64,000 nt of DNA from an uncultured Paraprevotella sp. (lineage in GTDB: Bacteria; Bacteroidota; Bacteroidia; Bacteroidales; Bacteroidaceae). The notes under the pieces are model-generated. The model worked only from the letters and a program-made list of their open reading frames with translations, had not been told where the DNA came from and did not search any database. The DNA is taken from the NCBI GenBank assembly GCA_944321525.1, contig CALULQ010000011.1, positions 1 to 64,000 on the forward strand, read 5' to 3'. Below are positions 1 through 9,797 of this stretch, piece after piece; within the stretch, counting starts at the first letter, position 1; the number at the start of each line of letters is the position of its first letter. A program made the translations under genes and the position numbers.

Positions 1-87
1 ACGGTCGCCAAACGCTACGTCCCCGCCTATGTCCTGGCCACTCTAAGATACCAATGGTCGTACACTCCCAAGAAAAAGAAACTATGA
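1..87 (+). CDS. C-terminal fragment of an unidentified protein
   Basis: Frame 1 is open from the window edge to a TGA at 85-87 and encodes 28 residues ending in a lysine-rich tail. The alternating hydrophobic/aromatic pattern (YVPAYVLATLRYQW) would suit a last beta-strand, but this is too short to identify. Frame 3 is also open across this stretch, so the frame choice is uncertain. The gene would lie directly upstream of the exporter cluster. Confidence 0.35.
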   Translation, partial: TVAKRYVPAYVLATLRYQWSYTPKKKKL

Positions 88-352
88 AACCGCCTAGCCC
101 TTATCCAAACCACCGACAGGGCTGCGCCTCTAGCTACTACGCCCTGCGTTATGAGATTCGTGAAGATTCCCTGGCTGAACACGGACTACACTATAGTTGT
201 GGATTCGGTCAATATCATCAATATCGTGAAAGGGGGGTGAAATGAGAATAGTCTGCAAATGGCATTTTTTACACCGCAAAGGCGTAGACGCGAATCTACC
301 TCGTGCGGGACACGGCGGGACATTACAATTTATTTTATTGTCTCACTCGTGA
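84..352 (+). other. Region of overlapping small ORFs upstream of the peptide exporter
   Basis: Three short reading frames compete here. One starts at ATG 84, overlaps the upstream stop as ATGA, and ends at 245 (53 residues, two Cys). One starts at ATG 242, again an ATGA overlap, and ends at 352 (36 residues). A third starts at ATG 151 and ends at 240 (29 residues); its last two residues are Gly-Gly. A run of six G at 232-237 sits at that Gly-Gly. Removing one G would join the 151 frame to the 242 frame, giving a peptide with a leader ending in Gly-Gly followed by a cationic tail. C39 exporters cleave after double glycine, so a precursor is expected near here, but which frame is translated, if any, cannot be settled from sequence. 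Confidence 0.3.
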
Positions 353-396
353 AGTTCTGCTTGTTTTTTCAATTGGGACTACAATAACAAGAATTC

Positions 397-2619
397 ATGC
401 GACGTTTTACACAATTTCCACACTACAAGCAGAACAACGCCATGGACTGCGGTCCGACGTGCCTGCGCATCATAGCACGGTATTACAAGCTGGACTACTC
501 GCCCGAGATGCTGCGCCGCCACTGCCACGTGTCGCGCACCGGGGTCAATCTGCTGGGCATCAGCGACGCCGCGGAGTACATCGGGCTGGAGGCGGTGGGG
601 GTGAAGATGACCTTCGAGCAGCTGGCCGAGGAGGGCGTGTTTCCCTGCATCCTCTACTGGAACCAGAACCACTTCGTGGTGTGCTACGGCATAGAGAGAC
701 GCAAGGGCGGAGGCTACAGGATACACATATCCGACCCGGCCTCGCAGCGGCTCACCTACACGCAGGAAGAGTTTGAGAAATGTTGGACGGGGGCCCGCGA
801 CGGGGGCGGGGACAAGAAGAGCGGCGTGGCCCTGATGGTGGAGCCGGGGGACAACTGGGGCAAGGTGGAGGACGAGTACCGGAAAAACCGGCGGAGCATC
901 CTGTCGTTCGTGCGCTATTTCACCCCCTACCGCCGCATGATAGCCCAACTGCTGCTGGCCATGCTGCTGGGGAGCCTGATACAGCTGGTGCTGCCCTTCC
1001 TGTCGCAGGCCATGGTGGACCAGGGCATCAACGGGCGCAACCTGAACATCATCACCCTGATCCTGCTGGCGCAGCTGGGCTTCTTCGTCGCCACGCTGAG
1101 CATCGACTACATCCGCTCGTGGATCATGCTGCACATCAACTCGCGCATCGACATCGCGCTCATCGCCGACTTCCTCATCAAGCTCACGGCCATGCCGCTG
1201 CAGTTTTTCGACTCGCGCATGACGGGCGACATCCTGCAGCGCATCGGCGACCACGGCCGCATCAAGAACTTCCTGCTGGGCAACAGCATGCGCATCGTGT
1301 TCTCGACGGTGAACTTCATCGTGTTCCTGTGCATCCTGGCCTATTACCACACGACGGTGCTGGCCATCTTCCTGACGGGCAACGCCCTCTACGTGGCGTG
1401 GATCTCGTTCTTCATGCGCTACCGGCGCGAACTGGACATCAAGCGGTTCAACCTGTCGGCCCAGGAACAGAGCAAGATGATACAGCTGGTGCAGGGCATG
1501 CAGGACATCAAGCTGAACAACAGCGAGCGGCAGAAGCGCTGGGAATGGGAACGGATACAGGTGAAGCTCTTCGGCATCGGGCTGAAGGGACTGCGCATCG
1601 GGCAGGTGCAGCAGTCCGGCTCGGTGTTCTTCACCCAGACCACCCACATCCTGATCTACTACATCGCGGCCAAGGCCGTGGTGGACGGGTCGATGACCCT
1701 CGGCATGATGATGTCGCTCACCTACATCATCGGGCAGGTGTCGGCCCCCATCGGCGAGTTCATCGGCTTCGCCCAGTCGTTCCAAGACGCGAAAATCAGC
1801 CTGGAGCGACTCAACGAGGTGCACTCGCAGCGGGACGAGGAGGAGGGAATAGAACGGAAACTGCCCCGGCTGCCCGGAGGGCGCGACATCGACATCAGGC
1901 ATCTCTCGTTCAGCTACAGCGGTTCGGACCGGGAACTGGCGCTCAACGACGTCAGCTTCCGGATTCCGGCCCACAAAGTGACGGCCGTCGTAGGCGAAAG
2001 CGGGTGCGGCAAGACCACCCTCATCAAACTGCTGCAGGGATTCTATGAGCCGACGCGCGGCAGCATCAGCGTGGGGGGCGTGGCCCTGTCGGACATCAAT
2101 CCCCACACGTGGCGGGCCGCCACTGGATCGGTGATGCAGGACAGCTTCATCTTCTCCGACACGATTGCGGGCAACATCGCCATCAGCACCGACGAGGCCA
2201 ACGAGGCGAGGGTGAGGGACGCGGCGAGGCTGGCACGGATTGACGACTTCGTGGAATCGCTCCCGCTGGGCTACGACACCGTCATCGGCATGGAGGGCAA
2301 GGGCGTGAGCCAGGGACAGCGGCAACGCATCCTGATAGCCCGCGCCATCTACAAGAACCCCGAATACATCTTCCTCGACGAGGCCACCAACTCGCTGGAC
2401 GCCACCAATGAGGCCGCCATCATGGACAACCTGAACCACTTCTACGAGGGGCGCACGGTGGTGGTCAGCGCCCACCGCCTGAGCACCGTGCGCAACGCCG
2501 ACCAAATCATCGTGATGGACAGGGGCAAGATAGTGGAGCACGGCGACCACCAAACCCTGCTGGAGAAACGGGGACGATATTATGAACTGGTGAAGAACCA
2601 AATGAGCGTAACGGCATGA
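397..2619 (+). CDS. Peptidase-containing ABC transporter (C39 bacteriocin-type exporter)
   Basis: A 740-residue protein that would cleave a leader peptide and export the core peptide across the inner membrane. Residues 1 to about 150 form a C39 cysteine peptidase: Cys18 in the MDCGPTC motif, His92 in NQNHFVV and Asp113 in ISDP are the likely triad. A six-helix ABC membrane domain follows (about 165-450). The nucleotide-binding domain has Walker A GESGCGKTT (533-541), a signature read as VSQGQ in place of LSGGQ, Walker B YIFLDEA (about 657) and the H-loop SAHRLSTV. Length fits the family. It heads a tightly packed cluster with a HlyD-like stub and modification enzymes. The function class is secure; the substrate is unknown. 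Confidence 0.93.
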   Translation: MRRFTQFPHYKQNNAMDCGPTCLRIIARYYKLDYSPEMLRRHCHVSRTGVNLLGISDAAEYIGLEAVGVKMTFEQLAEEGVFPCILYWNQNHFVVCYGIERRKGGGYRIHISDPASQRLTYTQEEFEKCWTGARDGGGDKKSGVALMVEPGDNWGKVEDEYRKNRRSILSFVRYFTPYRRMIAQLLLAMLLGSLIQLVLPFLSQAMVDQGINGRNLNIITLILLAQLGFFVATLSIDYIRSWIMLHINSRIDIALIADFLIKLTAMPLQFFDSRMTGDILQRIGDHGRIKNFLLGNSMRIVFSTVNFIVFLCILAYYHTTVLAIFLTGNALYVAWISFFMRYRRELDIKRFNLSAQEQSKMIQLVQGMQDIKLNNSERQKRWEWERIQVKLFGIGLKGLRIGQVQQSGSVFFTQTTHILIYYIAAKAVVDGSMTLGMMMSLTYIIGQVSAPIGEFIGFAQSFQDAKISLERLNEVHSQRDEEEGIERKLPRLPGGRDIDIRHLSFSYSGSDRELALNDVSFRIPAHKVTAVVGESGCGKTTLIKLLQGFYEPTRGSISVGGVALSDINPHTWRAATGSVMQDSFIFSDTIAGNIAISTDEANEARVRDAARLARIDDFVESLPLGYDTVIGMEGKGVSQGQRQRILIARAIYKNPEYIFLDEATNSLDATNEAAIMDNLNHFYEGRTVVVSAHRLSTVRNADQIIVMDRGKIVEHGDHQTLLEKRGRYYELVKNQMSVTA

Positions 2620-2819
2620 AAGACGAAAAAACACACTGCCCCGAAGTGGAGCAACTCATGAGCGGGCGCATGCCCTTCGTCACCCGGCACGGCATCACCA
2701 TCGTAGCCGCCGTGGTGGCCCTGACGGGCGCCGTGCTGCTGTGCTCGGGCGGGGCACCGCAACAACTGATGAAAGACATCGTGAAACACACCGTAGAACA
2801 AATCAAAAGCAAAATATGA
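2616..2819 (+). CDS. Small membrane protein resembling the N-terminal anchor of HlyD adaptors
   Basis: A 67-residue protein whose ATG overlaps the exporter stop (ATGA). A charged N-terminus of about 20 residues precedes one membrane helix (about 25-45), followed by a short charged tail. The segment around GRMPFVTRHGITIV recalls the entry to the single helix of Bacteroidetes HlyD/MFP adaptors, which are encoded beside such exporters but run to about 400 residues with hairpin and lipoyl domains. None of those domains is present, because the protein ends just after the helix. It may be a reduced adaptor, an exporter subunit, or the remnant of a degraded hlyD gene. The HlyD relation is inferred from pattern only. 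Confidence 0.6.
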   Translation: MKDEKTHCPEVEQLMSGRMPFVTRHGITIVAAVVALTGAVLLCSGGAPQQLMKDIVKHTVEQIKSKI

Positions 2820-4288
2820 TGGGACACACTGATTGCGTCATCTCGGCCGTGGGGCGAAACAGCCTGCACCGCCAATGGCTGGAAGGCGAGCCGCACTTCG
2901 ACCTCCACCTGATTGTATATGACGACTCCGCGGACCTGTTCCGCGGCGACACGGAACACTTGTGCCAGCTCAAGGGCTACAAGCTGAAAGTCGTTTACCG
3001 CTACCTGGAACTGCATCCGGAACTGATGGGGCGGTATGACTACTTCTTCATCCCGGACGACGACCTGCAGATGGACGCCGCCGCCATCAACGCCCTCTTC
3101 GAAGCCATGCGGCGCTACGGGCTGAGGGTGGCGCAGCCGGCGCTCCGCATGTCGTACTTCTCCTGGAAACACACGCTGAGGGACCGGTATTGCAGGCTGC
3201 GCTACACTAACTTCGTGGAGATGATGATGCCCTGTTTCTCGCGCGAGGCACTGGAGAAGGTACTGTTCACCTTCGACGAGAACGAGACGGGATGGGGGAC
3301 GGAGGCCCACTGGCCCCGATTGCTCCATGCCGGGCCAAAGGACATGGCCATCGTGGACGAAATCGGCGTGGTGCACGCGCGCCCCATACAGCCGAGGCGC
3401 CCCCTGCACCGGCAGGAACAAGAGGCTTATTTCCGGAAATACGGCCTGACGGACCGGGTGGAGGAATACGGGACCCTGCCGGCAGACGGGGCGCAGGATT
3501 TTCCCTGCTTCCGGGAGCGGTGCAGGCAATTCAAGGCGATGTTCGCGCACTGGCTCCAAGAGGAAAGGATGGCGACGGCATCGGTGGGAGAAGACGGGCA
3601 CTTCGGCTACGCACACTTCCTGTTCCTGCTGGCGCGAATCACGGAGTCGCAACGGCTGGCCGACGCGGCGCTGGACATCCTGGGCAGGGCACAAGACTGG
3701 CTGGGAAACATCAAGAACGACATGAGCTTCGGGCACGGCATCGCGGGATGCTGCTGGCTGGTGGAGTTCCTGGCACGGAACGGATTCATAGACTGTGACC
3801 CGCAGGACGTGCTGGAAGAGGCGGACCTACACGTGGAGCGCTACCTGCGGGAACACGAGGACGGACTGTCGTTCACGGAACTGGCGGGCATCGGGCGGTA
3901 TTACCTGGCCAAGGCCGCGCGCAGCGGCACGGCGGAGCACCGCAGGGACTGCGAGCACGTGGCGGAACTGCTGGAACGGAAAACAGACGGGGAGGAGGAC
4001 GAGGCGGACATCGAGACCGTGGCGGACGCCCTGGAGCTGCTGCAAAAATGTGGGCGAACGGACCATACACGGCTCCGCCGGCTGGAGAAGCGGGTGGGAA
4101 TCTGCACGTGCACTCCGCTGGAGCACGCGCACCGGATGTTCCGGCTATACGGCCTGACGGGAGACGAATATTTCAAAGTCTGCGTCAGGGAAGAACTGGA
4201 GCACCTTCCGCCCCAATTGCTGGACCTTGGCGGCGCGCTGGCCTTGGCGGAAATGTTATCTTTTGACTCAAACGGACTTATATCATGA
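2816..4288 (+). CDS. DUF707 glycosyltransferase-like / LanC-like fusion protein
   Basis: A protein of about 490 residues starting at ATG 2816, which overlaps the previous stop; ATG 2819 is equally possible. The N-terminal half (about 1-200) fits the DUF707 family: an acidic PDDDL motif (Asp81-83), RYTNFVEMMMP (from 129) and ENETGWG (about 152-158). This resembles a nucleotide-sugar transferase fold. The C-terminal half (about 240-485) is alpha-helical with GHGIAGCCWLVEFL (306-319) and ELAGIGRYYLA, like the repeated helical hairpins of LanC-type cyclases in Bacteroidetes peptide clusters. The usual C-terminal zinc-site motif (Trp-Cys-His-Gly) is not visible, so cyclase activity is doubtful. 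The context beside a C39 exporter suggests it modifies the exported peptide. The domain fusion is the unusual point. Confidence 0.65.
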   Translation: MMGHTDCVISAVGRNSLHRQWLEGEPHFDLHLIVYDDSADLFRGDTEHLCQLKGYKLKVVYRYLELHPELMGRYDYFFIPDDDLQMDAAAINALFEAMRRYGLRVAQPALRMSYFSWKHTLRDRYCRLRYTNFVEMMMPCFSREALEKVLFTFDENETGWGTEAHWPRLLHAGPKDMAIVDEIGVVHARPIQPRRPLHRQEQEAYFRKYGLTDRVEEYGTLPADGAQDFPCFRERCRQFKAMFAHWLQEERMATASVGEDGHFGYAHFLFLLARITESQRLADAALDILGRAQDWLGNIKNDMSFGHGIAGCCWLVEFLARNGFIDCDPQDVLEEADLHVERYLREHEDGLSFTELAGIGRYYLAKAARSGTAEHRRDCEHVAELLERKTDGEEDEADIETVADALELLQKCGRTDHTRLRRLEKRVGICTCTPLEHAHRMFRLYGLTGDEYFKVCVREELEHLPPQLLDLGGALALAEMLSFDSNGLIS

Positions 4289-5049
4289 CGAATACGGCTA
4301 TTTTGTTTACGACCCATGTGGTTCATGACAGCATCAGGCGGCAAATTCTGAAGCTCCGGGACGAGACCCGGGGGCAGGGCGATTTCTATGTGGGCTACCA
4401 GGCGGACAAGGTGTCTCTCCAACTGCCCGACGGCGTGACGCCCTTCCCTTTCACCCTGAGGAAGCTCAACCTGTTGGGCTACAGCCCGAGGGTGTGCACC
4501 CTGCTGGGCGGGAGCTTCCACTTCGTCCTGTTGGACTTCTTCCGCCATTTCCCGGGATATGATTACTATTGGCTGGTGGAATACGACGTGCGTTTCAACG
4601 GCAACTGGAAAGAGTTCTTTTCCTTTTTTGAAGACAAGGAGGAGGATTTCGTATCGGCCCATCTTGAGACGGTGGACGACTTCCCCGGATGGTCTTGGTG
4701 GGACGCCGTGGAGCTGGCGGGCATTCCCCTGAAACGAGAAAACCTGCGCAAGTCGTTCAATCCCATTTGCCGGCTTTCCTGGCGCGCCTTGGACTTGTTG
4801 GACCGGAGGTGCCAACTGGGCGACCGGGGACATTATGAGGCCGTGATGCCCACGCTGTTCCATCACTACCGGCTGCGGATGGCGGACTTCGGCGGGCGCG
4901 GCCGGTATGCGTACCCGGGTTGTCCCGACCTGTTTTATGCGGACAATCCCGGCGACGACGGTCCCGACCGGTGTACCCACCGCTTCCGGCCCGCGTACAC
5001 GGAGGAGGGCATGACCCTGCCCAACAAGATTTATCATCCTATAAAATAA
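4285..5049 (+). CDS. Glycosyltransferase-like protein
   Basis: A 254-residue soluble protein whose ATG overlaps the previous stop (ATGA). It opens with a beta-strand (AILFTTHVVHD) and carries YYWLVEYDVRFNGNWKEFF near residue 95, a hydrophobic strand ending in an acidic E-x-D pair as in metal-dependent GT-A glycosyltransferases. The pattern recalls DUF3405-type proteins. It ends in YHPIK, as its neighbour at 5055 nearly does (YHPFK), and both begin with an FTTH strand, so the two look like diverged duplicates. Translational coupling puts it in the exporter operon, where it may glycosylate the peptide. The enzymatic assignment is by pattern only. Confidence 0.55.
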   Translation: MTNTAILFTTHVVHDSIRRQILKLRDETRGQGDFYVGYQADKVSLQLPDGVTPFPFTLRKLNLLGYSPRVCTLLGGSFHFVLLDFFRHFPGYDYYWLVEYDVRFNGNWKEFFSFFEDKEEDFVSAHLETVDDFPGWSWWDAVELAGIPLKRENLRKSFNPICRLSWRALDLLDRRCQLGDRGHYEAVMPTLFHHYRLRMADFGGRGRYAYPGCPDLFYADNPGDDGPDRCTHRFRPAYTEEGMTLPNKIYHPIK

Positions 5050-5054
5050 CAATT

Positions 5055-5810
5055 ATGAGAAAAGAGTTTCAGACTTCCACGAGGAAGCACCAGAACTGCG
5101 TGGTGTTCACCACCCACAAGTTGGACGAAGGCGTATTGAGCTATCTGGCCTATCTCAAGAAAGAGGTAGAGGGCACAATGGACTTCGTCATCCTCTACGA
5201 CCAGTCGGCCCATCCCATCCGGGAGGAGGACTATCCCGACTACTCCTTCTTCTTCTTCGAATCGGAGAAACTGAGGGGCTTCTTCCATCAGGGCAACAAA
5301 CTGCTGCCCAACACATTCGTCGCCCTGATTGAATATGCAAAGCAATACCGCTACGACCATTACCTGCTGATGGAGAACGACATCATCCTGCAAGGCAAGT
5401 TCCATGAGTTCATCGGCCGGGTGTGCGAAGAGCAGGCGGACTACATCCATATCGCCACGGACGTGGAAGGCGGACCGCTCAATCATTGGCCCGTGCAATA
5501 CATCCGCGACTGCCCCTTTGAGCGCCTCTACTTCGCGTGGTGCCACATCTTCTATGTCAGCCGCAAATTCATCGTGGACGTAGCGAATTTCATGGACCAG
5601 AATGACAGCATACATTACGAATTCCTGTTGCCGACGATGGCTTACACCGGCGGTTACGAGGTGCGGCAGTTTGAAAACTTCGGCTATCATTTCCAAGTGT
5701 CGTGGGGACCGGTGGCCTATTATGAGTTCCTGCACCGCATAGAACAAACGCACAATACTTTCTACCATCCGTTCAAACACTTGGAACTGTTGGCGTTCGA
5801 GAACCTTTGA
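5055..5810 (+). CDS. Glycosyltransferase-like protein, paralogue of the preceding gene
   Basis: A 251-residue protein. The start at ATG 5055 lies 5 bases after the upstream stop and gives a normal N-terminus; the longer open frame upstream is out-of-frame sequence of the preceding gene. It has a first strand NCVVFTTHKLDEG, a central YDHYLLMENDIILQGKFHEF with the acidic E-x-D pair at the place equivalent to VEYDVRF in the neighbour, and a YHPFK tail. It is the last gene of the cluster and is followed by a hairpin. Sugar donor and acceptor are unknown. The pairing with a similar gene suggests either two sequential sugar additions or a heteromeric enzyme. Confidence 0.55.
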   Translation: MRKEFQTSTRKHQNCVVFTTHKLDEGVLSYLAYLKKEVEGTMDFVILYDQSAHPIREEDYPDYSFFFFESEKLRGFFHQGNKLLPNTFVALIEYAKQYRYDHYLLMENDIILQGKFHEFIGRVCEEQADYIHIATDVEGGPLNHWPVQYIRDCPFERLYFAWCHIFYVSRKFIVDVANFMDQNDSIHYEFLLPTMAYTGGYEVRQFENFGYHFQVSWGPVAYYEFLHRIEQTHNTFYHPFKHLELLAFENL

Positions 5811-5851
5811 CACGGGCACAGCTACAAGAAACGGAACTGACAAACGGAACT

Positions 5852-5890
5852 GCCGCGCACAGGAACGACTCCCGTGCGCAGCAGTTTTTT
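5852..5890. terminator. Probable terminator between convergent operons
   Basis: A 6-bp stem GCGCAC (5855-5860) / GTGCGC (5874-5879), with flanking TGC/GCA pairing, is followed by TTTTTT at 5885-5890. It lies 40 bases after the last gene of the peptide cluster and before the stop of the convergent GH51 gene. Confidence 0.6.
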
Positions 5891-5920
5891 CATGACCTCG
5901 TCCGTAACGGCAGATGGCAG

Positions 5921-8443
5921 TTACAGTTCGGCCTTTATACGCAGGATGGTGTAGGAATAAGGTTGGAACTCATACACGAAGTCGTCGCCAGCATCCTGAA
6001 GCTCGCTCTCCTGGGGCGAAATCTTCAAAGGCTCGGCAAACGAATTTTCCTCCGCGTCGTCCGTGGCCGACAGGGTAATCACCTTGCCAGTCCCGGCCAC
6101 CCGCTTGGCTCCTTCCAGCCTGATGCCCAAAGGATAGGTCTTGCCTTCGGCATTCACGACCTTGATGACCACTTCGCCGGCGGCCTCATCGTAGCCGGTG
6201 GTGAAGAACTGCATCGGGCTCGACTTCGGCTCGAAGGCCAGCACCAACTTGCCGTCCATGTAGAGTTCGCTCTTCTGCGGGGTGACCACCATCTTCACCT
6301 GATACCAGCGCCCCGTTTCGAGGCTCTGGGCGGTGCGGTTGTCGCCAGCCACGCCCGAGGTGCGCCCTTGGTTCACCTCCTCCACGGCCGTGGTCTGGTT
6401 GCCCCATCCGCCCACGTTGTACACGTAGCCTTTGCCCTGTGGCTCCGTCAGGCCCCAATAGAGGAAGAAGCCCTCGTTGCCGCCCGTCTTCTTCACCTGG
6501 CACTCCATCGTGAACCGGTTGCTCTTGACGCCGCTCAGGATGTAGCGGGCCGGAGTCTCAGGCGACGTCTGGGTGAGCACACCGTCCGTCCACGTCCAGT
6601 TGCCATTCTTGTGCGCCACGGCAGAGAGGTCCACCTCCATGGGCTTGCCATCGGCATCGGCAAACTTCACGTCGCGGAACTCCACGCTGGTGTTCCACGA
6701 ACCGAAGCCGAAAAGCCCCTCGCCGAAGGTCAACGCCCGCGGAGCGCTCATCGTCATGTTGCTCTTCACGTTGTACGACGGCCGGTTCTCGGCCGCCATC
6801 TTCTGCACGTAGTAAGAGCTGCGGCCCAGCACGCTGTCGGTGTCCAGCCAAATCAGGTTCACGGGCCAGGAGCGGTCGTGGCGGTTCTCGAGCAAGGGAG
6901 CGTAGGAAGCCATCTTCACCAGGTCGCCGTTGCGCTCCATGCCGCCGATGAAGGCCGCTTCGGAGAGCGCTGCGCGCATGTTGCCGCCGCCCACATTGGC
7001 GTTGCAGGCATACTCGCCGACGTAGATGTCATACTTGCCGCGCGGCTGGTTGTCGAAGATAGTGGTGTTCTGGAAGAAGAATTCCGGGGCGACATACCAA
7101 TGCGGGTCTATCATGTCGGTCTTGGCAATGTTCCCCGCAGCTCCCAACCCATGAGTGGAAATCAGCGTCAGTTGCGGATACTTCTCCTTGATGGCCGCAT
7201 AGAAGATGTCGAAGCGTTTGTCGTACTCCGCGCCCCAGTTTTCGTTGCCAATCTCCACATACTTCAAGGGGAAGGGAGCCGGATGGCCATGCGCGGCACG
7301 CTTAGCGCCCCACTCCGTGTCGGTGTCGCCGATGGCATACTCGATGGCATCCAGACAGTCGTCCACGTAGAAGGCGATTTCGTCGTCTGTGGAGACATCG
7401 GCCATGCGCATCTGACAAGCCATGCCCACGTTGCAGACGAACATGGCGTCGGCATGGATGTCCTCGCAGAACTGCAGCATCTCATAGTAACCGAAACCAT
7501 AGGAACAGCGATAGCCCCAGGTGCTGTATTCGCCGGGGCGGGCCGCCGGGTCGCCCAACGACTTCTTCCACTCATAGCGGTTGCCCAGCGTGATGCCTTC
7601 CACCACGCACCCGCCCGGCCAGCGGACGAAGGCCGGCTTCAGGTCGGCCAGCATCGTGGCCACGTCGTTGCGCAAACCGTTGGTCCGGCCATGGAAAGTT
7701 TTCTCGGGGAAGAGCGACACGTAGTCGAGCCAGACCGTGCCCGTGCCGTCGAACTCCAACGCCAGCTTGCCTTTCCCCGACGTGGCCAGGGGCACCAGCT
7801 TCTGGTCCACATCGCTCCACTGGCCGTCTTCACCGAGAAGCACGGGAGCAGACACCAGCACTTCGCCCTTTTCCGAGAGGAGAAGCGCCTTCACGCCCCC
7901 CTTATATCCCGACGTGCGCAGGATGGTGCGCAACAAGTAGGTGTCGCCTTCCACCAGGTTCATGCCCCAATAGCCGCCGTTGACCAGCCGCACCGGCGCA
8001 TCGGCGGCGGTGATGGAGAGTTTCAGGTTGTTGGGCGCCGTGTCGAACTTCGGGCGCTCCTTGGTCAGTTCCATCTTGGCGTCGGCGCCTTGCCCCGTCA
8101 CCAAGGTCCAGCCCGGAACGGGTTCGGTGGTCCAACGGAAACGGCCGTCGCCCGTCTTCCCCGTCATGTGGTTGACCACCTTCTTGGGGTGCAGCACGTC
8201 GCCCTCGGCATAATAGCCTTCCGGCATTTCCAGTTCTTCGAAACTGCGGTTTCTCACCAGTTCCGCATACAAGCCTCCGTCTCCGGCATGGTTGATTTCC
8301 TCGAAGAAGACACCATACATGGAGGGAGAGACCTCCGCGCCCTTGTCCTGCAGGTTGACCACGAGCTGGTCTTCCGGCTCCACTTGGGTGCACGCGCCTG
8401 CCAACAAGGCCAAAGACGCCATCAGCAAAACATTTCTCTTCAT
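5921..8443 (-). CDS. Alpha-L-arabinofuranosidase, GH51, lipoprotein
   Basis: An 840-residue enzyme predicted to release terminal alpha-L-arabinofuranose from arabinans or arabinogalactans. The start at 8443 gives a lipoprotein signal peptide with lipobox LAGAC; the extra 47 residues upstream in frame look non-coding. The catalytic acid/base Glu lies in VEIGNENWG (about residue 397) and the nucleophile Glu in YVGEYACN (about 475). A carbohydrate-binding-like insert follows in the C-terminal third before the family's terminal beta-sandwich. It lies 88 bases downstream of another secreted hydrolase gene on the same strand, so both are likely co-transcribed. Confidence 0.88.
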   Translation of the reverse strand: MKRNVLLMASLALLAGACTQVEPEDQLVVNLQDKGAEVSPSMYGVFFEEINHAGDGGLYAELVRNRSFEELEMPEGYYAEGDVLHPKKVVNHMTGKTGDGRFRWTTEPVPGWTLVTGQGADAKMELTKERPKFDTAPNNLKLSITAADAPVRLVNGGYWGMNLVEGDTYLLRTILRTSGYKGGVKALLLSEKGEVLVSAPVLLGEDGQWSDVDQKLVPLATSGKGKLALEFDGTGTVWLDYVSLFPEKTFHGRTNGLRNDVATMLADLKPAFVRWPGGCVVEGITLGNRYEWKKSLGDPAARPGEYSTWGYRCSYGFGYYEMLQFCEDIHADAMFVCNVGMACQMRMADVSTDDEIAFYVDDCLDAIEYAIGDTDTEWGAKRAAHGHPAPFPLKYVEIGNENWGAEYDKRFDIFYAAIKEKYPQLTLISTHGLGAAGNIAKTDMIDPHWYVAPEFFFQNTTIFDNQPRGKYDIYVGEYACNANVGGGNMRAALSEAAFIGGMERNGDLVKMASYAPLLENRHDRSWPVNLIWLDTDSVLGRSSYYVQKMAAENRPSYNVKSNMTMSAPRALTFGEGLFGFGSWNTSVEFRDVKFADADGKPMEVDLSAVAHKNGNWTWTDGVLTQTSPETPARYILSGVKSNRFTMECQVKKTGGNEGFFLYWGLTEPQGKGYVYNVGGWGNQTTAVEEVNQGRTSGVAGDNRTAQSLETGRWYQVKMVVTPQKSELYMDGKLVLAFEPKSSPMQFFTTGYDEAAGEVVIKVVNAEGKTYPLGIRLEGAKRVAGTGKVITLSATDDAEENSFAEPLKISPQESELQDAGDDFVYEFQPYSYTILRIKAEL

Positions 8444-8531
8444 GTTCTTCAGGTTTTTTGATATGATTATTGCGTTCCGCCCGCCGGGATGCCCGGCGGG
8501 ACTGTTTTTCCCATCCACGGGAAAGCCGCCG

Positions 8532-9767
8532 TCAGAAGATAATCTGGCAGCCTTCTTCCAACATCCGGGCCATCTCGTAGGCATAGGTCCGGATTTCCAC
8601 GATGTCGCGCTCCTTCTCGTCCTGCGCCCGCCACGTCCTGATGCGCGCCGTGAGCGGCACCTGCATGGGCACCATCTCCGACCCCTCGAGCAGGTTGGCG
8701 CAGACTTCCATCGCGTCGAGCAGCCGCTCGCTGGAGGACCGCTTCGAACGGAAGGCCGTATAGTCGTCCTTCATCGCGCGCTGCAGTTGCCGCAAGGCGG
8801 CTTCCACCTTGCCCTCCTTGTTGGGATTGGGGCGCACCAAGGCGGCCTCGTCACGGTTGCGATAGAAGCCGAAAAGGGCGGCGACGACAGACGGGTCGCG
8901 CACCGTGCCGTCGGGGTAGACAATGCCGTGAATGTCGCCCCAATAGCCGCCTATCATGAGGTTGAACAAATACCAGCCCGCTCCGTTCTTCTCGCAAAGC
9001 TCAATGGCCATGTCGTAGGAATTGGCGCGGCCCGGACATCCCGTTTCACTGTTGATGACGGGTTTGCCGTACTTTTCAGACACCTGACGGGCAACGTCGT
9101 AGCTCGCCTGCACCCGGGAGCGAGTGTCGGAATAGTCGTGGAAACAGAGCACGTCGACCAAGTCGGCTGTCCGCTCCAGGTTTTGCGCCACGGTGACGCC
9201 CACCGTGATGGCATTCTTTCCGTCCAGTTCCTTAACGAGCCGGCAATAATGGCGCACGAAGCCCCACACTTTGTCATGGCGAGCCTCGCGCTCCGCGGCC
9301 GGCGCCTGCCCGCAATAGTCGTTGCAGGTGGGTTCGTTCATGATGTCCCAGATAAAAAGTCCCGGCTCATCCTTGAGCGCGCCCACCACCGCCTTCACGT
9401 AAGCATCGCCCTCGGCCCGGAACTTCTCGTCCAAGATGGCGGGGTCCATCATGTTCCCGTTGAAAAGAATGGGCATGGTGGAGATGCCCATCTTGTGGGC
9501 CGTGCGGACGTAGTTGAGCAGTTTCTTGACATAAGCTTCCGGTTCGCGACGGTAGCTGTTGAAGTCCAGCCAGATGCGCGTGCTGTTCAGCCTGAGCTTC
9601 CGGGCATATCCCAAGTCGCGCTCCAGAATATCCTGCCGGTCCTCGAGACCATAGCACACACCGCGAACAAAACTGTAGTCTTTCAGGGGCTCGGTAGCCG
9701 CTGCCGGAACGATGCCCGCCCAGGCGGCCATCGACCATACGAATAAAATAAGGTAACAATGTTTCAT
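8532..9767 (-). CDS. Secreted clan GH-A glycoside hydrolase (GH5-like)
   Basis: A protein of about 411 residues with an N-terminal signal peptide. The start is taken at ATG 9767 (MKHCYLI), with 9776 as the alternative. A TIM-barrel hydrolase is indicated by RIWLDF, the acid/base region FIWDIMNEP and the nucleophile strand VINSETGCPG, the two glutamates expected at the ends of strands 4 and 7 in clan GH-A. The overall pattern is nearest to GH5/cellulase-type proteins, but subfamily and substrate cannot be read from sequence. The C-terminal 100 residues are helical and charged. It sits 31 bases after the murI stop and 88 bases before the GH51 gene. Confidence 0.72.
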   Translation of the reverse strand: MKHCYLILFVWSMAAWAGIVPAAATEPLKDYSFVRGVCYGLEDRQDILERDLGYARKLRLNSTRIWLDFNSYRREPEAYVKKLLNYVRTAHKMGISTMPILFNGNMMDPAILDEKFRAEGDAYVKAVVGALKDEPGLFIWDIMNEPTCNDYCGQAPAAEREARHDKVWGFVRHYCRLVKELDGKNAITVGVTVAQNLERTADLVDVLCFHDYSDTRSRVQASYDVARQVSEKYGKPVINSETGCPGRANSYDMAIELCEKNGAGWYLFNLMIGGYWGDIHGIVYPDGTVRDPSVVAALFGFYRNRDEAALVRPNPNKEGKVEAALRQLQRAMKDDYTAFRSKRSSSERLLDAMEVCANLLEGSEMVPMQVPLTARIRTWRAQDEKERDIVEIRTYAYEMARMLEEGCQIIF

Positions 9768-9797
9768 GGCATTCAAAGATTTAATGTTCTACAGATA

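Follow-up and report, generated by a model that had tools for sequence, protein, structure and literature searches.

Glycocins such as sublancin, glycocin F and thermoglycocin are encoded in clusters that bring together a small Cys-rich precursor, a dedicated glycosyltransferase, a C39 peptidase-containing ABC exporter and thiol-disulfide oxidoreductases, as described in the accessible part of a glycocin paper (PMC12457901). The bacteroidetocins (class IIf) of Bacteroidota have a double-glycine (GG) leader of 15-16 residues, a Cys-rich core, a thiol oxidoreductase and a C39-type exporter, and their four-gene region, which contains no glycosyltransferases, is enough for activity in E. coli, according to the available sections of the source (PMC6671954). 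In Bacteroidales, areas encoding ribosomally synthesized and post-translationally modified peptides (RiPPs) contain LanC-like proteins with neither a LanB partner nor the zinc triad; some of these clusters combine GG precursors with a peptidase-containing ABC transporter and an outer-membrane protein and have no membrane fusion protein, and some areas have a GlyS domain, as far as the accessible text goes (Fernandez-Cantos 2023; PMC10352776). Here we analyzed an operon at the start of a 64,000-nucleotide stretch of DNA from an uncultured Paraprevotella sp., hereafter the window, which corresponds to positions 1-64000 of contig C11 in the source genome G000, a member of the same family as Segatella copri. 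The operon quite probably makes a disulfide-bonded, multiply glycosylated, leader-cleaved and exported peptide, with the export and glycosylation half in the window and the likely precursor half at the start of another contig, C32. Judging from the genes, the product is likely glycocin-like, with UDP-xylose and UDP-galactofuranose as the likely sugar donors.

The operon shares with the glycocin clusters a precursor with a C39-type leader and a Cys-rich core, a thiol-disulfide oxidoreductase and a C39 exporter, the last encoded with the precursor on a single contig of a related genome (G014). Unlike the glycocins, the predicted product belongs to a Gram-negative bacterium, and the cluster includes a barrel protein and an adaptor stub. 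Where glycocins have a single glycosyltransferase, we found five glycosyltransferase-type proteins, two sugar-nucleotide genes and LanC-like toroids. By their published description, the bacteroidetocins differ from the operon in their shorter leader and in having no glycosyltransferases. The operon resembles the Bacteroidales RiPP areas in its zinc-less LanC-like proteins and in a layout of peptidase-containing transporter and outer-membrane protein without a full adaptor; a radical SAM enzyme, present in 8 of 9 selected clusters in the accessible text of that study (PMC10352776), was not seen among the proteins scanned here, which are those of the window and of the C32 cluster. The main text of the same study has no word beginning with "DUF" (PMC10352776).

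Organization of the operon in the window

The front half of the operon is absent from the window because the window begins at the contig start. On the forward strand, an outer-membrane β-barrel gene of the OMP_b-brl_3 type, truncated by the contig start to its 3' end (1..87), is followed by the genes for a 740-residue C39 peptidase-containing ABC exporter (397..2619), a 67-residue single-transmembrane stub in the slot of a HlyD-type adaptor (2616..2819), a 490-residue fusion of a DUF707 half of GT-A fold with a LanC-like α/α-toroid half (2816..4288), and two predicted glycosyltransferases, the DUF3405-like GT1 of 254 residues (4285..5049) and the GT-A-like GT2 of 251 residues (5055..5810). An initial annotation of this stretch had described the five genes as packed with ATGA overlaps or a 5-base gap. 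All five open reading frames lie where it placed them, with three ATGA overlaps coupling the first four genes and 5 bases separating GT1 from GT2. The packing is not due to chance, because the order C39-stub-fusion-GT1-GT2 recurs in G014 (stretch L016) and G012 (L017) with 55-85% identity. Gene-like long frames past position 5810 (5921-8584 and 8532-9776) run on the opposite strand, and 5810 was therefore taken as the end of the unit. An NCBIfam scan assigned no function to the stub, the fusion, GT1 or GT2.

The claim of a C39 exporter is well founded, with Pfam matches to Peptidase_C39 (108.5 bits), ABC_membrane (69.5 bits) and ABC_tran (105.4 bits). Residues C18, H92 and D113 presumably form the catalytic triad. 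The exporter is 84-85% identical in G014, G012 and G001 and is the only PF03412 match in its own genome at E<=1e-5; five other genomes have 2 to 6 such matches each, fragments and VKOR-type C39-like domains included.

The stub, previously labeled a HlyD-like anchor, is a real single-transmembrane protein of 67-68 residues with 67-72% identity in G014, G012 and G001, while the HlyD label draws on gene position and a weak similarity. Its only Pfam match, to PsbN, stays below the cut-off (12.2 versus 25 bits). A protein of 239-242 residues fills the same slot in G045 and G049. With a profile built from four stubs, the G049 protein scored 13.1 bits against a best of 8.3 bits in 1000 shuffles, those of G045 and G020 scored 8.1 and 5.9 bits, and both G012 adaptors ranked below the shuffles. 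From sequence, the stub is a probable anchor-only remnant of a HlyD-type adaptor.

The likely precursor half on contig C32

The start of contig C32 (stretch L041) carries a gene set that, read towards the contig start, begins with a UDP-xylose synthase (UXS, 6449-7516), which matches a solved UDP-glucuronate decarboxylase (E 2e-105) and is the sole UXS match of the genome at E<=1e-20. A UDP-galactopyranose mutase (UGM, 5313-6437; E 4e-129 to a solved enzyme), a LanC-like protein of 202 residues (4714-5322; LANC_like 19.1 bits, below the cut-off), a GT4 glycosyltransferase (3098-4723) and a GT7C-type protein (2355-3116) follow, the latter two over their Pfam cut-offs. The next gene (721-2355) encodes VKOR (47.7 bits) and Thioredoxin_4 (34.3 bits) in a single protein. 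Adjoining it and the start of a barrel gene is a 75-residue double-glycine precursor (468-695, minus strand).

In G014, UXS, LanC, GT4, GT7, VKOR, precursor, barrel, C39 exporter, stub, fusion, GT1 and GT2 follow one another on one contig, with 55-85% identity and without UGM, as read from the overlapping stretches L045 and L016 of its contig C8, the barrel being compared with the G014 protein as query. Owing to this synteny we link C32 to C11, and the start of C32 is likely, from sequence comparison, the missing front half of the window operon. The barrel would lie at the junction. Frame 1 of the window ends in RYVPAYVLATLRYQWSYTPKKKKL before its stop codon, resembling the end of the 958-residue G014 barrel (L016 3109-5985; OMP_b-brl_3 53.5 bits), and the C39 exporter comes immediately after a barrel gene in G014 (L016), G012 (L017, cut by the contig end) and G001 (L019). 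In the source genome the barrel is a two-copy repeat with 5' ends on C32 and C61, which agree almost completely over the first 170 bases of the gene, and 3' ends on C11 and C23, which do so over about 120 bases. Its middle has no high-identity match in this genome among the 14 matches found.

The initial annotation had started its finding at position 84. This is the start of an 84-245 frame (53 residues), which we rejected as a gene or precursor: it opens at the stop codon of the barrel gene and lacks a GG leader, and 40 other genomes searched contain no match to its DNA or to window positions 80-400 as a whole. Bases 81-128 recur once in the source genome, with 90% identity, behind the second barrel copy on C23 (L043, last 130 bases), and these 48 bases run on there into a different sequence. 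The stretch of ~310 bp between barrel and exporter (window 84-396) is specific to G000 among 41 genomes searched. This arrangement suggests that recombination has exchanged the barrel of the cluster for sequence of the second copy.

The precursor (MKKLKKFVLSSSCLSLDENAMSKIVGG / IFARATSCGTSCGSGDPVYIFNCNGDCYSKEGKYVVCIGPTKEYWKYC) consists of a 27-residue double-glycine leader and a 48-residue core with six Cys, compared with five Cys in most characterised glycocins, following the accessible part of the glycocin paper (PMC12457901). The leaders of G000 and G014 both have 27 residues and share G-1, G-2, I-4, M-7 and L-12, in line with the hydrophobic residues at -7 and -12 that the same part reports for most C39 substrates (PMC12457901). 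Cleavage of the leader by the C39 exporter is predicted. The G014 precursor matches over its whole length (69%) and also has a six-Cys core, and the JGI metagenome protein P0122 matches over its whole length with 63%. Read by eye, the pattern C-x3-C-x10-C-x3-C-x9-C-x10-C and six Ser/Thr positions (T6, T10, S11, S14, S/T29 and S/T41) are kept in all three cores. Residues 1-41 touch TIGR04149, and the leader resembles this family of GG-leader RiPP precursors but stays under its 25-bit threshold; the G014 precursor has no listed match, and a TIGR04149 search of the source genome gave none at E<=10 although the precursor is present, and was thus without power here. We found no match to the precursor in 99 other related genomes. 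In G001 the precursor slot holds a different short peptide of 70 residues without GG.

The fusion protein and the glycosyltransferase-type proteins

The structure prediction proposed for the fusion protein yielded an AlphaFold2 model with a mean predicted local distance difference test (pLDDT) of 92.7 and a predicted template modeling score of 0.91. By fold comparison, the model consists of a GT-A half (residues about 2-215) and an α/α toroid (about 225-489). Pfam assigns DUF707 with 49.5 bits (cut-off 24.1), and LANC_like reaches 17.9 bits, below its cut-off of 23.2. In the DUF707 half, D82 and D83 are conserved in 66/66 sequences and H187 in 65/66. With a GT-A fold and an acidic D-x-D-type motif in the model, this half is a predicted glycosyltransferase.

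The fusion of a DUF707 half with a LanC-like half, as first described, thus stands as an architecture. Its LanC-like half is not evidence for LanC-type modification, because conserved zinc ligands are missing and no dehydratase came near the cut-off among the proteins scanned. Across the 66 sequences, no set of conserved Cys/His columns fits the LanC zinc site (C...CH), and no CH pair was found; the best-kept cysteines are C312 (63/66), C313 (54/66), C231 (52/66) and C412 (50/66). The VIA-align list of fold matches does not single out LanC, since unrelated toroids do as well as the LanC-type chains: LanCL1 comes after GH76, squalene-hopene cyclase and C3d, and MadC is also among the matches. 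We therefore rejected a LanC-type cyclase as the default assignment. Because it lacks the conserved zinc set, the toroid half is probably a docking module rather than a cyclase. No LanB was found among the proteins scanned, the whole genome not having been searched for it.

A sequence search of the fusion against the PDB gave no matching chain. Of the plasmid records, 24 matched, but no single place in them covered 80% of the query, and the best 20 of 24 all fell within residues 2-207, in the DUF707 half. GT1 and DUF707 are fused in a single chain in G045, G107 and G432, and GT1-DUF707-LanC chains occur as well. A 1337-residue protein of G012 (L020 6709-10722) contains GT1, DUF707, the toroid and, by eye, further glycosyltransferase-like stretches, and lies behind a C39 protein, an adaptor-sized protein and a TolC-like protein (by eye).

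GT1 and GT2, already noted as two related proteins, are distant relatives, with 23-28% identity in BLAST comparisons against the partner's orthologues. GT1 is 56-57% identical in G014, G012 and G045, carries the E-x-D motif VEYDV and touches DUF3405 with 21.4 bits, below the cut-off of 25. GT2 has no Pfam match and 71 homologues. Its AlphaFold2 model (pLDDT 90.3) finds among its best Foldseek matches the LH3 glycosyltransferase, B3GNT2 and the Aspergillus galactofuranosyltransferase GfsA (E 7e-6 to 1e-5); sugar nucleotidyltransferases such as ADP-glucose pyrophosphorylase match nearly as well (E 1.5e-5). With E107 conserved in 59/59 and D109 in 58/59 sequences, the model combines a GT-A fold with an acidic motif, from which glycosyltransferase activity is predicted; the modeled fold does not fix the sugar.

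We take Glycos_transf_2 to be the family of the SunS-type peptide S/O-glycosyltransferase. On this model the fusion scores only 12.4 bits (cut-off 23.3), and GT1 and GT2 have no such match, nor any in NCBIfam at E<=1. By Pfam, the sole library applied to the GT4 and GT7 of C32, the GT7 protein touches Glyco_tranf_2_2 with 17.8 bits, below the cut-off of 27.3. The cluster would, by its genes, work like a glycocin pathway; it is not filed as a glycocin because Pfam reveals no SunS-type enzyme.

Neighborhoods of the fusion homologues

We counted matches to the fusion at E<=1e-20 outside the source genome as strong, which gave 10 loci in six genomes. As the initial annotation would have it, these homologues neighbor C39 exporters: one lies in the fetched stretch (11.7-18 kb) at seven of the ten loci (G014, G012:C2, G045:C40, G001, G012:C39, G012:C28 at 52.7 kb, and G432). 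From the 2 to 6 matches per genome we estimate a frequency of ~2% for C39 in a random 18-kb stretch of the relatives, a figure that ignores clustering. UXS or UGM occurs at five of the ten, counting an extra upstream stretch of G014; such stretches were fetched for G014 and G001 only, and the counts at the other loci rest on one stretch each. Below the line and left out of the count are G049 (7e-14), with an exporter split over two reading frames and a UXS fragment, and G020 (9e-9), which matches in the LanC half only and has a C39 protein. G042 has two matches to the LanC half (E 4e-5 and 4e-4).

The family is rare in these samples. In our overlapping surveys of 101, 399 and 393 genomes, it occurs in 7 of the 399 genomes of the same family, the source included, and in 1 of the 393 of the order, which is the source genome itself. 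Six short fusion patterns, which reach close relatives only, picked out one relative among 84,980 species genomes, in S. copri; the G432 locus is the same as that of Segatella copri NZ_VZCB01000098.1. There (L050 527-10082), a GT1-DUF707 fusion occurs with a radical SAM protein, a GT7C protein, the C39 exporter and a 345-residue protein that is LanC-like by eye and has no Pfam match. The G001 locus (L019 1859-11325) is apparently decayed, with a fusion lacking residues 291-432, GT2 in two pieces and VKOR reduced to its thioredoxin end; it still holds the exporter, the stub, GT1 and UGM. The C39 locus of G020 (L025 866-8113), which has no DUF707 match, encodes a 94-residue TIGR04149-type GG peptide (25.9 bits) that also touches a lanthipeptide-leader model (14.7 bits, below 22), a 437-residue adaptor-like protein, a LanC-like protein (21.8 bits, below 23.2) and a GT4 relative.

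At three loci (L021 9115-16257, L023 2782-12689 and L049 797-6335), fusion relatives lie beside UXS or UGM and a GT14-methyltransferase protein, which matches the solved xylosyltransferase 1 in L021 (E 2e-12) and L023 (E 1.5e-15). Large exported-looking proteins with Ser-Gly- or Ser-Asp-rich linkers are encoded there, with DGSGYW-type repeats in L021 and a linker followed by NlpC/P60 in L023. These loci look like Ser-Gly xylosylation in bacteria. The source genome has one XylT1-like GT14 (264 residues, Branch 81.4 bits; L053 1214-2683, at the start of contig C2), followed by a separate methyltransferase-like reading frame; both parts are fused in one protein in L021 and L023. This GT14 could serve as a glycan starter from outside the cluster.

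Proposed pathway and alternative explanations

We infer the following steps, and their order, from protein families and gene order. In the cytoplasm, the toroid half of the fusion or the separate LanC-like protein would recognize the 75-residue precursor, perhaps via its leader. UXS would supply UDP-xylose and UGM UDP-galactofuranose, and the GT4, GT7-type, DUF707, DUF3405-like and GT2 enzymes would act on the precursor, building a short glycan, presumably of xylose and galactofuranose, on conserved Ser/Thr or Cys residues of the core. With the small anchor protein holding it, the C39 exporter would then cleave after Gly-Gly and move the core across the inner membrane. Next, the VKOR-thioredoxin protein would form disulfides among the core cysteines. 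The barrel protein would be the likely outer-membrane exit. The product may be antibacterial; a role in competition between bacteria is our default guess.

The claim of a glycosylated exported peptide made by an undescribed enzyme set is strengthened by the precursor, the disulfide enzyme and the two sugar-nucleotide genes on C32 and by the one-contig order in G014. Neither of the outcomes named beforehand as refuting it, a fusion without the expected folds or homologues never found near exporters, was observed. It needs correction in two respects: the precursor lies outside the window, and no lanthionine chemistry is indicated. Several observations weigh against the pathway. The junction that would join C32 to C11 is absent from the assembly, and because the barrel is a two-copy repeat, C61 could be joined to C11 on this genome alone. 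Whole-length relatives of the precursor are limited to G014 and the metagenome cluster P0122, with P0123 sharing only the leader part, and the precursor stays below the cut-off on every family model it touches (Resistin 18.4/25, Bacteriocin_IIc 15.4/27.1 and TIGR04149 14.9/25 bits). The G014 cluster lacks UGM, and the stretches fetched in G001 contain no UXS, and thus the sugars may differ between species. Finally, three of the ten strong loci (G012:C28 at 30.4 kb, G045:C104 and G107) have no C39 exporter in the fetched stretch and carry GT14 plus UXS or UGM.

These three loci speak for an alternative that we consider improbable, in which the glycosyltransferases build a surface polysaccharide or glycolipid while the C39 exporter and peptide form a separate, neighboring function. 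Capsule and O-antigen loci often contain UXS, UGM and glycosyltransferases, which we also counted in its favor. However, the same three loci still encode exported-looking proteins with double-glycine or GTWPGG-type N-termini, and no polymerase, flippase or undecaprenyl-phosphate transferase exceeded the cut-off among the proteins scanned. Further points against it are the ATGA coupling of C39, stub, fusion and GT1 and a gene order shared with two other genomes and with a third, whose fusion and GT2 are decayed.

Less credible still is an unmodified disulfide bacteriocin of the bacteroidetocin type, with its exporter placed before glycosyltransferase genes by chance. The GG leader, Cys-rich core, thiol oxidoreductase and C39-type exporter are all bacteroidetocin parts in the available sections of the source, in which, however, the leader has 15-16 residues rather than 27, bacteroidetocins A and B have four Cys rather than six, and four genes are enough for activity (PMC6671954), whereas G000 and G014 both preserve five glycosyltransferase-type proteins in the same order. 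Thioether ring closure by the LanC-like half, in a lanthipeptide-like pathway, is very improbable: the LANC_like matches of the fusion and the 202-residue protein are weak, a LanKC model touches the LanC-like half with 10.6 bits (cut-off 575) and LanCL1 and MadC are among the fold matches, but neither protein has a CH pair, the toroid half lacks a conserved zinc set, GH76, squalene-hopene cyclase and C3d match its fold equally well or better, no LanB or LanM match was found among the proteins scanned, and published Bacteroidales LanC-like proteins likewise lack the triad in the accessible text (PMC10352776).

Returning to the glycosylated exported peptide, a broader and decidedly speculative idea, which we regard as unlikely, is that the operon and its relatives form one Bacteroidota system sugar-coating exported double-glycine peptides and proteins. 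XylT1-like, GT7-type, DUF707 and DUF3405 enzymes would make a xylose-started, galactofuranose-bearing glycan, steered by catalytically dead LanC-like toroids. It would be a bacterial counterpart, placed on a bacteriocin-like peptide, of the xylose-galactose linker known from animal proteoglycans.

Implications

Literature searches returned no paper on DUF707 with "bacteroid" and none on DUF3405, and no description of a DUF707-toroid fusion with UXS, UGM and VKOR turned up among the matches listed, supplementary files and most subscription papers lying outside the coverage. As a sugar-coated peptide, the product would be of a kind that did not turn up in the literature searched. If the proposal is true, DUF707 and DUF3405, of unknown function in Pfam, would gain a testable job in peptide glycosylation. 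The organism would export a Gram-negative glycopeptide with sugars from UDP-xylose and UDP-galactofuranose, in place of the N-acetylglucosamine given for glycocins in the accessible part of that paper (PMC12457901). It would also suggest why zinc-less LanC-like proteins occur beside glycosyltransferases in Bacteroidales.

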